Below, piece by piece: positions 4,916 to 29,424 of a stretch of DNA of 29,424 nucleotides. The position numbers were made by a program, and so were the translations under genes. The stretch covers positions 1-29,424 of the IMG/VR virus record IMGVR_UViG_3300047470_000032, one strand, 5' to 3'. The DNA comes from a virus. The notes below the pieces were generated by a model. The model was not told where the DNA came from and did not search any database. It saw only the letters and a program-made list of their open reading frames with translations. Within the stretch, counting starts at the first letter, position 1. The number at the start of each line of letters is the position of its first letter.

Positions 4916-5009
4916 ATTGCCTAAAAATCACCGCAGCCAGAGCGGCCTTCGGGAGGTCTGGACACTGATAAGCCGGCAAGTGCAGTGCTACGGATAAACA
5001 CCGGCAGCC

Positions 5010-5266
5010 CGCGCGCCCTGACCTCACAATGCTGCAGGGTGGCGCGAGACTGGATCAGCGAGATCGATGCAAAGGGGCGTCGACGCTGTGATAGCCTTCG
5101 GCGGACAGGAGGGGAAAGACCCTCGCATTATGCGGATGAATGCGCAGGCTGATGCGTAAAGGTAACGGGCCTTGGCCCTGTGGTAATCGGAACCACACTG
5201 TACGGTCGTGCAACTCGACCATCCCGAAAGCAGGAGATCAGCGCCTGCCATCCGCACCTATTCAGG
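5010..5266 (+). ncRNA. Candidate structured leader RNA or small RNA
   Basis: The stretch 4920-5379 has no convincing protein gene but carries a chain of local hairpins: 5010-5046 (two five-pair blocks with a bulge, CCCTG/CAGGG innermost), 5124-5144 (CGCATT/AATGCG), 5167-5178 (GGGCC/GGCCC, two-base loop), 5179-5197 (six pairs, seven-base loop), 5204-5220 (GGTCG/CGACC, seven-base loop) and 5230-5248 (GCAGG/CCTGC), then a terminator at 5267. Any transcript reaching the lysis genes would carry it. It may be an untranslated late leader, an independent phage small RNA, or remains of a lost gene. The 5' end is not defined from sequence. Confidence 0.35.
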
Positions 5267-5291
5267 GCCTCTGCATTCGCAGGGGCTTTTT
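5267..5291 (+). terminator. Intrinsic terminator before the lysis genes
   Basis: An 8-bp stem, GCCTCTGC (5267-5274) with GCAGGGGC (5279-5286) including one G-U pair, ATTC loop, is followed by five T's, a C and four more T's. It is the second barrier between the late promoter and the holin, again fitting Q-dependent antitermination. Confidence 0.75.
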
Positions 5292-5379
5292 CGTTTTCGG
5301 CTCCCCACACCCATTGCCCCAAGCTGGGAGTGCAGCGGACGCCGGATTTATCAATCTCCCCAAGGGGGAGGCAACCCGG

Positions 5380-5703
5380 ATGCCAAACATGCCTGACAAG
5401 CCAGACACATGGGCCAAGATCTGGCTGGCGTTGAGCAATCCGCTCTGGCAGGGCGCAATCATGGCCATCACCGTATCGTTGCTTCGAGTCATGTACGACG
5501 CAAAGGAAACCAGTAAGCGTCGGATCTTGTTCGAATCGCTGATCTGCGGATCGCTGAGCCTCGTTGCGTCCAGCGTGATTGAGTGGATGACCTGGCCGCC
5601 CAGCCTGTCGGTTGCCGCTGGAGGGACTATTGGGTTCCTTGGCGTGACAGCCATTCGCGAGCTGGTGACCCGCTTCCTCGGTCGCAAGGCGGATGCCGCA
5701 TGA
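5380..5703 (+). CDS. Holin, lambda S-type
   Basis: A 107-residue membrane protein that would accumulate in the inner membrane and open holes at a set time. Three hydrophobic segments are visible at about residues 22-37 (QGAIMAITVSLLRVM), 50-65 (LICGSLSLVASSVIEW) and 75-92 (LSVAAGGTIGFLGVTAI), with a basic C-terminal tail (RFLGRKADAA), the class I/phage_holin_3 pattern. ATG 5380 is eight bases after GGGGGAGG; a second ATG at 5389 gives an N-terminus MPNMPDK, so two forms three residues apart are possible, as for lambda S107/S105. It overlaps the spanin gene by ATGA. No endolysin gene is adjacent. Confidence 0.82.
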   Translation: MPNMPDKPDTWAKIWLALSNPLWQGAIMAITVSLLRVMYDAKETSKRRILFESLICGSLSLVASSVIEWMTWPPSLSVAAGGTIGFLGVTAIRELVTRFLGRKADAA

Positions 5704-6086
5704 AGGCCTTCGCTGCTGCAATCATCATCGCCCTGGTCGGCCTGCTCCTCGTTGGGATTCAGCAGTCGCGCGTTGTCGCACTTCGCGGTGAGGTGGCATT
5801 CGAAGCCAGCGAGAAGAAGAAGGCGGTTGACGCCAACCTCGAAAGCCAGGCCACGATCACCACGCTGCGCGCCGAAGCCCAGCGCAACGCCGATTACCAG
5901 AAAGACCTGAACAAGCGGTTACAGGCCAGTCAGGCCAAAGCCAAAAAGGCGGAGAAGAACTTTGAAGAACTCAAGCGCAACAGCAAGCCTGTTCGTGATT
6001 GGGCTGCTCAGCCTCTGCCTGACGGCCTGCGCGGTAAAGCCGCCACTGGTAACAAAGACAGCGGCGGTAAGAGTCGAACCCCCTGA
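5700..6086 (+). CDS. Inner-membrane spanin subunit (Rz/LysB-like)
   Basis: The 128-residue product has one N-terminal membrane anchor (FAAAIIIALVGLLLVGI, residues about 4-20) followed by a long periplasmic alpha-helical, Glu/Lys/Ala-rich coiled coil (30-105). Near the end it has VRDWAAQPLPDGLRG, the characteristic RDWA-x-x-PLP motif of LysB/Rz-like proteins. With the outer-membrane partner encoded inside it, it would bridge the envelope and fuse inner and outer membranes at the last step of lysis. The start at 5700 overlaps the holin stop (ATGA). Length is typical. Confidence 0.87.
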   Translation: MKAFAAAIIIALVGLLLVGIQQSRVVALRGEVAFEASEKKKAVDANLESQATITTLRAEAQRNADYQKDLNKRLQASQAKAKKAEKNFEELKRNSKPVRDWAAQPLPDGLRGKAATGNKDSGGKSRTP

Positions 6087-6228
6087 GCTGGTGCCTTGTG
6101 AGCGGGTAGCTGATGAAGACCTCGCCGACAACGGCCAGCTGTGGGAACTGAAGAATCAAGCCATCAACCTGCTCGACACTTGCGCGGACCAGGTGGACGC
6201 GCAGATCAAACGCAGTCAGAGCAAGTAG
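5962..6228 (+). CDS. Outer-membrane spanin lipoprotein (Rz1/LysC-like), nested in the Rz gene
   Basis: An 88-residue lipoprotein read in a different frame from, and starting within, the Rz-like gene, extending 142 bases past it; nested genes of this type are a signature of two-component spanins. The signal peptide begins MKNSS, has a hydrophobic core (LFVIGLLSLCL) and ends in the lipobox LTAC (Cys at about 23). The mature part starts AVKPP and has a second PPELVPC patch, as in other Rz1/LysC proteins. The start is TTG 5962; there is no in-frame ATG before the lipobox, and a GGAG lies about ten bases upstream. It should be anchored in the outer membrane and bind the Rz-type subunit. Confidence 0.82.
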   Translation: MKNSSATASLFVIGLLSLCLTACAVKPPLVTKTAAVRVEPPELVPCERVADEDLADNGQLWELKNQAINLLDTCADQVDAQIKRSQSK

Positions 6229-15370: not shown

Positions 15371-16531
15371 ATGAGCTCTGGCGCAAAAGTTGTAAGCCAC
15401 ATCATTGCGGAGGTGACGCCCGGCGTTACTCCCACCGGCACCTGGGACACGCTGCGCCTGACCGGCAACGCGCTGACCCCTACCGTTAACACCGAAGTCA
15501 GCGACGAAATCACCGACACCCGCCTGAGCCAAGGCTCGGTGGCCACCAGCATCGATATCGGCGGCGATCTAACCGCTGAGTTCTCGTTCGGCTCGTTCGA
15601 CCAGCTGCTGGAGGCCGCGTTTTACGGCAACTGGACTGGCAACGTGCTGAGTGTTGGCGATACACGCCACACCTTCAGCATCGCCAAGGGCTACAACGAC
15701 GTCGGCGTCTATGGCGTGTTCAAGGGCGCGCACGTCTCGACCTTCGCGCTCGACATCCCGTCTGAAGGCAAGGTGACCGCCACGTTCAACATGGCGTGCC
15801 TGGACTACACCGACGGAGACACCCCGATTGTCGTTTCGCCGAATGCGCCGACCACCACCCCGTTCCTGTCGAACAACAACGTCGGCACGATCCTTGTGAA
15901 TGGCCAGTCGCTCGAAGGCGTGGCCTGTGTCTCGGCCATGACCGTGAATCTGGACAACAGCCTGCAGACTCAGCGCTGCCTTGGCTCCGATCGTCTCGGC
16001 CCGGGCGCGCACATCGCCACCGAGGCGGCAGTTACCGGCAGCATCACGCTGGCCTGGTCGAAGCGCGCGTGGGAGATCTGGAAGAACACCTTCACCCGCG
16101 CGCCAATCGGCGTCGTGTTCCCGATCACCGACAGCCTGGGCAACAAGTACACCTTCAACTTTCCATCAGTGGAAGTGGATGGCGAGCTGCCGAATGGCGG
16201 CAAGCGCGACCTGATCGAGGTGACGCTGAACTACACCGTTGCCAAGGTCAGCCCGACCATCTCCCGCGTTCCGTTCGTGCCGGTGACCAGCGTCTCGGTG
16301 GCGCCTACGACCGCATCCATTGCGGTAGCCGCGACTCGTCAGCTCACTGCGTCGGCGTTGCCGGCCGAAGCCGCGCAAAACGTCACCTGGTCCAGTTCGG
16401 CGCCGAGCGTTGCCACTGTCAGCTCATCCGGCTTGGTCTCCGGCGTTTCCGCTGGCTCCGCGACGATTACCGCTACCAGCGTGTCGGACGTCACCAAAAC
16501 CAGCACGGCGGCGATCACCGTCACTGCATAA
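15371..16531 (+). CDS. Major tail tube protein with C-terminal Big_2 (Ig-like) domain
   Basis: A 386-residue tail tube subunit. Residues 1 to about 300 form the tube domain, with features of the lambda gpV-like/phage tail tube family (AEVTPGVTPTGTWDTLRLTG, an IDIGGDLTAEFSFGSFDQLLEAAF segment, LDIPSEGKVTATFN, and a late VFPITDSLGNKYTFNFPSVEVDGE). From about 303 a Big_2 domain follows (SVSVAPTTASIAVAATRQLTA, NVTWSSSAPSVATVSSSGLVSGVSAGSATITAT). Lambda gpV and many other tail tubes carry an Ig-like C-terminal domain on the outside of the tail, where it may touch cell-surface or mucus glycans. GGAGG lies just before ATG 15371. A hairpin follows the stop. Confidence 0.88.
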   Translation: MSSGAKVVSHIIAEVTPGVTPTGTWDTLRLTGNALTPTVNTEVSDEITDTRLSQGSVATSIDIGGDLTAEFSFGSFDQLLEAAFYGNWTGNVLSVGDTRHTFSIAKGYNDVGVYGVFKGAHVSTFALDIPSEGKVTATFNMACLDYTDGDTPIVVSPNAPTTTPFLSNNNVGTILVNGQSLEGVACVSAMTVNLDNSLQTQRCLGSDRLGPGAHIATEAAVTGSITLAWSKRAWEIWKNTFTRAPIGVVFPITDSLGNKYTFNFPSVEVDGELPNGGKRDLIEVTLNYTVAKVSPTISRVPFVPVTSVSVAPTTASIAVAATRQLTASALPAEAAQNVTWSSSAPSVATVSSSGLVSGVSAGSATITATSVSDVTKTSTAAITVTA

Positions 16532-28343: not shown

Positions 28344-28358
28344 GCCTGGAGAAAAGTG

Positions 28359-28781
28359 ATGCCTGTAACCGAAAAAGACCGCGACATCCTCGCTCGCACT
28401 ATCTGGGGTGAGGCTCGCGGTGAAGGGACGGCCGGCCAAGTGGCCGTGGCTTGGACGATCCGCAACCGTGTGTTTGATGGAAAGGAAAAGTCTTGGTGGG
28501 GCGAGGGCTACGCCGGCGTGTGCCAGAAGCCTTACCAGTTCAGCAGCTGGAACAAGGCCGACCCGAACTATCAGTTCCTGATCGGCGTGAAGCAGATCCC
28601 GTTCCGTGAACTGGCGCAATGTCGTATCGCGGCTGACCAAGTGATCGACGGTAAGGTGCCGGATCCCACCGGCGGCGCCACTCACTATTACGCCACCAGC
28701 ATCAAGGCACCGGCCTGGGCGGCGAAGGCCAAGCAGACGCTTAAGCTCGGTCACCACGTCTTCTTCAAGGACGTGCCGTAG
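28359..28781 (+). CDS. Endolysin, SleB/CwlJ-type cell-wall hydrolase
   Basis: A 140-residue enzyme of the Hydrolase_2 (SleB/CwlJ) family: DRDILARTIWGEARGEGTAGQVAVAWTIRNRV (the conserved WGEARGE with catalytic Glu, A-W-x-I-x-N-R), YAGVCQKPYQFSSWN, and near the end GATHYYAT and PAWA. It would cleave the glycan backbone of peptidoglycan. There is no signal peptide or membrane anchor, so it depends on the holin for release. It lies 22 kb downstream of holin and spanins, as in several Pseudomonas siphoviruses. ATG 28359 has GGAG seven bases before it; the adjacent in-frame GTG at 28356 is less likely. A virion-associated role cannot be excluded. Confidence 0.87.
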   Translation: MPVTEKDRDILARTIWGEARGEGTAGQVAVAWTIRNRVFDGKEKSWWGEGYAGVCQKPYQFSSWNKADPNYQFLIGVKQIPFRELAQCRIAADQVIDGKVPDPTGGATHYYATSIKAPAWAAKAKQTLKLGHHVFFKDVP

Positions 28782-28793
28782 CCAGGATCTGCC

Positions 28794-29126
28794 TCATTCC
28801 TCCTCGTCGCGGTCGCGAATCTCCCTGAGCAGGCGCTGGTTTTCATTGAACAGATGGTTCCTGTTGTGCTCGACGTCCGCAAATCTTCGCCTTTCGCTCA
28901 GCAAGTCCCCTTCGGCGTACTGAAGCTTTGCCCTGAGAGAATTTCTCTCCTGGGTGAGCGCGTCATTGTCTCGAACCAAGCCCTCAATATTTTCAAGTGC
29001 CCGATCGAGCTTGAGGGTGAGCGTTTCGAATTCGTTTTCGTACATCCGGAGTTGATGCCGGCAGGTTTCGAGCGAAGTCGGGTTACCGAGCCAATCGTCG
29101 GTTTCTTCTATATAGAGGGGATCCAC
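28794..29126 (-). CDS. SOS-box-controlled coiled-coil protein on the minus strand
   Basis: A 110-residue acidic protein. I chose the GTG start at 29126 (minus strand) because AAGG lies seven bases before it and a LexA box lies 20 bases upstream at 29146-29161; a longer frame back to ATG 29312 would run through that box and has no ribosome site. The N-terminus is VDPLYIEETDDWLGNPTSLE; from about residue 25 to the end it is one long coiled coil (ENEFETLTLKLDRALENIEGL, NSLRAKLQYAEGDLLSERRR). It is the only minus-strand gene seen, convergent with the endolysin and beside att, so it is a lysogeny-side cargo gene turned on by DNA damage. Function unknown; no membrane segment or catalytic motif. Confidence 0.72.
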   Translation of the reverse strand: MDPLYIEETDDWLGNPTSLETCRHQLRMYENEFETLTLKLDRALENIEGLVRDNDALTQERNSLRAKLQYAEGDLLSERRRFADVEHNRNHLFNENQRLLREIRDRDEEE

Positions 29127-29145
29127 GGGAATGCCTTGCTTGATA

Positions 29146-29161
29146 CTGTTTGGATATACAG
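29146..29161 (-). promoter_or_regulatory. LexA (SOS) box
   Basis: CTG-N10-CAG at 29146-29161, extended to perfect inverted halves TACTGT and ACAGTA (29144-29163). This matches the proteobacterial LexA consensus closely. It lies 20 bases upstream of the GTG start of the minus-strand gene, a normal operator position. Confidence 0.82.
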
Positions 29162-29262
29162 TAATCGAGGTGCAGACGGTGGGCGAGGGTGAGGCGACGA
29201 GCTGTAGGGTTTTGGATTGGTTTTCAGTCGGCAGAACGCCGGATAGGGCGCCAAAAAGGCTC

Positions 29263-29283
29263 AGTGACTTTCCGAGTGACTTT
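29263..29283. repeat. Direct repeats near att, possible integrase arm sites
   Basis: AGTGACTTT occurs at 29263-29271 and 29275-29283, same orientation, 12 bp apart (about one helical turn). They lie about 90-100 bp inside the prophage from the tRNA-derived att core, where tyrosine integrases have arm-type sites. The integrase is outside the window, so this is inference. The rest of 29164-29369 shows nothing I can assign. Confidence 0.4.
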
Positions 29284-29369
29284 GTAAAACACGGTTGCGC
29301 ACAGTTGGGCATCGTTGCAGCGAGCGCCCGGCGCGAAGCCTCGGGTTTGGCGGGCTGTAGGTCAGTCCG

Positions 29370-29419
29370 CTTGCATGGGGTGCTAGGGGTCGAGTGTTCG
29401 AATCACTCCGTCCCGACCA
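29370..29419 (+). other. Attachment site: displaced 3' part of tRNA-Pro(GGG)
   Basis: The segment holds the 3' part of a tRNA: anticodon arm (CTTGC, loop ATGGGGT with anticodon GGG, GCTAG), five-base variable loop, T-arm (GAGTG-TTCGAAT-CACTC, 29392-29408), acceptor strand CGTCCCG (29409-29415), A and CCA (29417-29419). The 5' half (acceptor, D-arm) is absent upstream, so this is a fragment, not a gene. One stem pair is a T-T mismatch at 29372/29384. It fits the right junction (attR) of a phage inserted in tRNA-Pro; an intact copy is expected at the left junction. The identity is from memory of the Pseudomonas gene. Confidence 0.78.
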
Positions 29420-29424
29420 TTATT

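Follow-up and report, generated by a model that had tools for sequence, protein, structure and literature searches.

A coiled-coil gene under very probable LexA control beside the attachment site of Pseudomonas temperate phages, and its possible place in a DNA-damage accessory cassette

The window analysed here, i.e. the whole stretch of 29,424 nt of virus DNA at positions 1 to 29,424 of IMG/VR record IMGVR_UViG_3300047470_000032, stands by itself as a 29.4-kb virus record that lacks the prophage's left half; the integrase, the repressor and attL lie outside it. Near its end, a minus-strand gene for a 110-residue coiled-coil protein is preceded by a candidate LexA box, with a tRNA-Pro attachment site at a distance of about 190 bp. 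The features of this region are the following.

28356-28781, plus strand: endolysin (cell wall hydrolase, Hydrolase_2; Pfam PF07486, E 1.8e-18; phrog_15649 and phrog_938)
28794-29126, minus strand: 110-aa coiled-coil gene, from its translation (GTG at 29126-29124, stop codon at 28794-28796)
29134-29137, minus strand: AAGG Shine-Dalgarno, from the sequence, 6-7 nt ahead of the GTG
29144-29163, minus strand: candidate LexA (SOS) box TACTGTATATCCAAACAGTA, 20 bp; plus-strand letters TACTGTTTGGATATACAGTA
29164-29170, minus strand: CCTCGAT flank immediately upstream of the box, with conservation of at least 80% among 104 non-redundant relatives
29182-29204, minus strand: promoter-cassette block CAGCTCGTCGCCTCACCCTCGCC, from the conservation profile; outer boundary of the cassette
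29263-29271 and 29275-29283, unstranded: direct repeats AGTGACTTT, from a repeat search
29351-29424, plus strand: attR, the 3' part of tRNA-Pro(GGG), from ARAGORN; duplicated core at about 29377-29424

Two starts can be considered for the coiled-coil gene, namely the GTG at 29126 and an upstream one at 29312 that would give a product of 172 aa. The longer frame is open in the window, but not in relatives. In-frame stops fall between box and start in 52 of 153 relatives; a further 32 have one no more than 60 nt ahead of the box, and the spacer between box and start varies by 1-2 nt among relatives, which shifts the frame. The 172-aa reading is therefore rejected as a gene product. Comparison of the 153 relatives thus bears out the sequence-only reading, in which the short GTG start with its AAGG, giving 110 residues, had been preferred and the start at 29312 considered wrong; homologs starting further upstream, with coding sequence conserved across the box, did not emerge. 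The AAGG is retained in most close relatives, and a codon comparison with 40 close relatives demonstrates purifying selection on the gene (median dN/dS 0.116, median dS 0.62). The coiled-coil nature of the protein, also part of that earlier reading, is strongly supported by the relatives. AlphaFold2 predicts a flexible N-terminus followed by a single unbroken helix over residues 18-109 (pLDDT about 98, pTM 0.54), an outcome that suits a coiled-coil rod modelled as a single chain. An N-terminal peptide, D-T-x-D-W-L-G-x-P-T-P-L-E, is conserved: all of 82 family members share T9, W12, L13 and G14, and nearly all have P16, T17, L19 and E20.

Searches of Pfam, NCBIfam, PHROG and PADLOC gave no convincing family for this protein, only low-scoring matches of the kind expected from coiled-coil background. 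Identities as HALZ, YabA, SMC or PbeC were rejected on these grounds, all being below cut-offs (YabA, PF06156, reached 15.5 bits against a curated cut-off of 30). A profile search of the PDB retrieved coiled coils only, all above E 0.02, and a PDB fold search with the predicted model returned no match. As coiled coils match everything weakly and no fold was matched, no biochemical activity is indicated by these searches. The family itself is large: viral contigs contain 414 relatives, and 90 loci were found in named Pseudomonas genomes. At E 0.001, 90 of 199 Pseudomonas genomes match, many of the weakest matches being coiled-coil look-alikes inside long frames. No match at E 1e-6 was obtained in 273 other gammaproteobacterial genomes, the rest of the order yielded weak coiled-coil look-alikes and no clear member, and the plasmids searched gave no match. 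Among the genomes sampled, the family thus appears confined to Pseudomonas, where hundreds of related prophages have this gene, together with its switch, at their ends.

The box TACTGTTTGGATATACAGTA is the sole copy of TACTGT-N8-ACAGTA in the window, and this pattern was absent from 100 shuffles; the exact motif CTGT-N8-ACAG likewise occurs once only, at 29144-29163. The textbook consensus for a LexA box is TACTGTATATATATACAGTA, with which TACTGTATATCCAAACAGTA agrees at 17 of 20 positions. The box lies close upstream of the start, at a distance of 17 bp from the GTG on the minus strand. A near-perfect LexA box before the GTG had already been proposed from the sequence, and a homolog search now indicates that this box is real and that such boxes precede relatives elsewhere. 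Exactly one CTG-N10-CAG, located 40-110 nt before the W-L-G codons, was present in 152 of the 155 relatives with enough upstream DNA, well beyond the chance rate of about 3% per 70 nt in the same DNA. These relatives were drawn from viral contigs (52 in one search, and 80 kept of the 414 found in another), Pseudomonas genomes (80 taken of 90 found) and phages (5). Their boxes comprise 51 distinct sequences, with consensus TACTGTATATnCAAACAGTA, and this diversity, together with the median dS of the coding sequence, argues against conservation by simple recent descent. The 73 strict boxes in 1.2 Mb of Pseudomonas genome loci are without exception located ahead of the coiled-coil gene (72 were assigned by script; the remaining one, in L081, is directly before its match).

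Conservation extends beyond the box. The CCTCGAT flank may represent an extended operator or a promoter element, and flank and operator together (CTCGATTACTG) were also found ahead of umuD, a classical SOS gene, and of an unrelated gene of 241 aa described below. When viral contigs were scanned with the extended operator CTCGATTACTGTAYRYNCAWMCAG, at least 119 sites were obtained. The coiled-coil family follows 88 of the 119 matches listed, the 241-aa protein 27 and umuD 4. The comparative data on the relatives' boxes and the operator in common with umuD make LexA control a strong inference rather than a guess from a motif, and we consider it very probable on this evidence that the coiled-coil gene is under LexA control. 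UmuD-like genes were observed behind the extended operator CTCGATTACTGTATGTGCATACAGTA in IMG/VR contigs L417, L450, L453 and L465; these are possibly prophage-borne umuDC genes or host flanks. Further out, some 45 nt ahead of the box, the block CAGCTCGTCGCCTCACCCTCGCC starts. Among 50 exact copies of its 20-nt core in viral contigs, 49 have a LexA-type box within the 50 nt that follow. A sigma-70 promoter scan recognised no -35/-10 elements.

The location of the gene next to an attachment site, noted earlier from the sequence, was substantiated in several ways. ARAGORN detects a 69-nt tRNA-Pro at 29351-29419, which comparison suggests to be a duplicated 3' tRNA end and not a resident gene. In Pseudomonas khorasanensis (L068), two copies of this core, of about 50 nt each, are present: one adjoins a degenerate coiled-coil gene, and the other lies inside tRNA-Pro beside a phiPSA1-type integrase. 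The window at 29207-29420 is 77.6% identical over 214 nt to the region of phiPSA1 beside its integrase, this homology stopping at the block at 29182-29204. From the adjoining tRNA-Pro core and the homology with phiPSA1, the coiled-coil gene can be placed as the phage gene nearest to attR. The AGTGACTTT repeat pair has a 20-nt copy next to the integrase gene of phiPSA1, and these repeats are probably integrase arm-type sites of attP. Many relatives also have a conserved CGGCGT(T/C)CTGCCG hairpin that separates the attachment core from the promoter cassette (29229-29241 in the window, with equivalents elsewhere), which may be an integrase terminator or a part of attP.

The homologs adjoin attachment sites as well. 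Across 33 prophage or phage records, one end carries the gene and the other typically an integrase, which 29 of the 33 possess, as in L002 (gene at 596-925 and integrase at 46082-46606, of 46,699). Given these opposite prophage ends, gene and integrase would meet across attP in the phage. In the complete phages PseuP_222 and VW-6S the order is integrase, coiled-coil gene, SRAP in some cases, and lysis genes. Upstream of the gene, relatives carry several integrase types or host genes such as folD, and tRNA-Leu, -Ser, -Arg or -Pro genes, which indicates that the gene travels with many integration specificities. On the other side, the coiled-coil gene is transcribed against the tail-fibre/endolysin operon, in agreement with the earlier description of a gene opposed to the late operon. 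Its stop and that of the endolysin converge with a gap of 12 bp, and in most relatives a lysis or tail region likewise lies downstream on the opposite strand.

SRAP proteins (YedK/HMCES) shield abasic sites in single-stranded DNA. A SRAP gene, identified by Pfam PF02586, comes next on the same strand in 43 of 157 relatives, i.e. about a quarter. SRAP is absent from the window, so the partnership is not essential. A C-terminal CxxC-like tail (HCECCAEKGL type) is present in 24 of the 43 SRAP-linked copies versus 4 of 111 others, and the window's copy has neither this tail nor SRAP. SRAP has been described, in the part of PMC3765255 considered here, as an SOS-linked, phage-borne protein found in SPbeta-type and proteobacterial prophages, the published contexts being umuDC, imuAB-dnaE2 and dinB. 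The cassette resembles these SOS operons in its apparent link to DNA damage and in the SRAP gene that often follows. An arrangement at the attachment end of a prophage in which the first gene is LexA-controlled and encodes the coiled coil or phrog_19595 was not encountered among the contexts in that part of PMC3765255.

The second family with this upstream region consists of a 241-aa protein recognised by its own PHROG (phrog_19595, E 5e-93). Loci with the shared LexA-operator cassette are:

L257, L260, L262, L266, L273, L277, L280 and L317-L372: phrog_19595 loci with the shared LexA-operator cassette

This family shows no detectable similarity in sequence to that of the coiled coil, and yet has in common with it the promoter cassette, the box (in 51 of 52 loci), the location at prophage ends and the link to SRAP, which follows it in 24 of 52 loci. 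It carries a C-terminal double CxxC. Its predicted structure comprises helices in the N-terminal 73 residues and low-confidence strands in the middle, with a mean pLDDT of 54, a value at which a fold search is not interpretable. As block, box and SRAP thus flank an unrelated protein, the promoter behaves as a cassette with exchangeable cargo.

Taken together, these comparisons lead us to favour, tentatively and at somewhat less than even confidence, the view that the locus is a LexA-repressed DNA-damage accessory cassette (an "SOS slot") located at that end of Pseudomonas temperate phages which adjoins the attachment site, with the coiled-coil gene as its first and, in the window, only gene. 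In the lysogen, LexA bound to the box just upstream of the start would keep the gene silent. Upon DNA damage, LexA activated by RecA cleaves itself, and the gene would then be switched on directly from the prophage, independently of the phage repressor. The product would be a rod-shaped, probably dimeric coiled coil, whose N-terminal D-T-x-D-W-L-G-x-P-T-P-L-E peptide may dock on a partner. It could act as an accessory in handling damaged DNA, either of the host or of the replicating phage, with SRAP as a frequent operon partner. The recurrence of SRAP as a neighbour and the operator in common with umuD point to DNA-damage handling as the partner pathway. Three quarters of the relatives without SRAP next door speak against a role of the coiled-coil protein in DNA damage, and we regard this role as possible, short of likely. 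A broader form of the idea is more doubtful still: one LexA-operator cassette beside attP would have its cargo exchanged between the W-L-G-x-P-T-P coiled-coil family and phrog_19595, each being an alternative SRAP partner, and together these would make up an unrecognised phage-borne protection system for abasic or damaged single-stranded DNA.

A different role under the same control would be that of an SOS modulator, in the manner of DinI and GIL01 gp7, both of which modulate the SOS response. The coiled coil would then bind RecA, LexA or another SOS component and tune the strength or timing of the response. Direct LexA control through an operator common to umuD would suit such a function, as would a conserved acidic, docking-like W-L-G-x-P-T-P peptide followed by a rod. 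However, no match to DinI, RecX or any other SOS-modulator family was found in Pfam, NCBIfam or PHROG, and we judge this explanation rather unlikely.

An antirepressor, i.e. a small LexA-controlled protein inactivating the phage repressor by binding to it, as do Tum of phage 186 and GftA/GfoA of Gifsy, had been among the functions suggested by the sequence-only reading, and comparison now disfavours it. The resemblance in control logic and in placement outside the immunity region is real, since these systems too rely on a small phage protein under host LexA, and Gifsy gftA is likewise small and GUG-started (PMC3121763). Moreover, 6 of 33 prophages carry the gene without a recognisable S24 repressor. 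The coiled-coil protein differs from Tum and GftA/GfoA in lacking a family match, in lying next to SRAP rather than dinI, and in occurring beside unrelated, mostly S24-type repressors: four mutually dissimilar repressor classes accompany copies that are at least 87% identical, with no co-variation with one type. S24-type repressors are present in 27 of 33 records, many with the Ser/Lys dyad and Ala-Gly site at the spacing expected for self-cleavage, so that induction by direct cleavage is to be expected there. A repressor-specific antirepressor is disfavoured on both counts; it would also leave the SRAP linkage unexplained and fit poorly with a slot that can be occupied by an unrelated protein. 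This explanation is accordingly unlikely. Excision, suggested in the same reading, finds no support in the absence of any match of the 110-aa protein to excisionase families and in the several integrase types and attachment sites alongside the gene. The near-identical copies beside four dissimilar repressor classes lead us to prefer an accessory operon over antirepression or excision.

The gene might instead encode a host-takeover function or brake on the cell cycle, in which an SOS-induced inhibitor of replication or division, with a SulA- or YabA-like effect, would favour the phage. SOS timing is compatible with this, and some members show weak similarity to YabA-type profiles. YabA (PF06156) indeed has a coiled-coil region of similar length, but the score, given above, is far under the curated cut-off and equal to that of many coiled coils, so that the likeness is probably one of composition only; the conservation of the N-terminal peptide, furthermore, is not YabA-like. 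We consider this improbable.

Still less credible is a brake acting through antisense RNA, with the protein secondary, in which the SOS transcript would read into the convergent endolysin gene and delay lysis. No terminator-like site was found in the 12-bp gap between the stops, which makes such read-through possible in the window, and the convergent lysis or tail region in most relatives agrees with it; but strong purifying selection acts at the protein level, several hundred bases part the box from the lysis genes in SRAP-bearing relatives, and the arrangement holds with different lysis genes. That the gene is not SOS-regulated at all, the box being fortuitous or a site for a phage repressor of LexA-like specificity, would accord with the unrecognised -35/-10 elements but is very hard to reconcile with a box kept in 152 of 155 relatives, across four repressor classes, and common to umuD.

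As a LexA-controlled accessory prophage gene, the coiled-coil gene is of a kind already known from Tum and Gifsy. No description of the family, of the cassette with exchangeable cargo or of the SRAP linkage at the attachment end was found in the literature searched, which was mostly open-access. Here probable LexA control defines a large unnamed family, and two uncharacterised proteins are offered as candidate SRAP partners. The cassette also provides a ready-made reporter of DNA damage, and allows a direct test of why phages place a DNA-damage gene under the host's repressor and not their own.

Some further observations concern the rest of the window. Holin-like, Rz-like and overlapping Rz1-like frames, the last with a lipoprotein signal, were read at 5140-6228, before the terminase. 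Lysis functions thus appear split, with the endolysin at the tail-fibre end, about 22 kb from these frames. A Proteo-phage-1 RNA (Rfam; 80.8 bits, E 1.8e-13) lies at 4931-5009, just upstream of the holin-like frame (within 5140-5703). By eye, the C-terminus of the major tail protein (16200-16531) has the appearance of a bacterial Ig-like domain of BIG2 type. At 397-1080, upstream of the replication initiation gene, a protein with a GIY-YIG-related (MUG113/T5orf172) domain is encoded.
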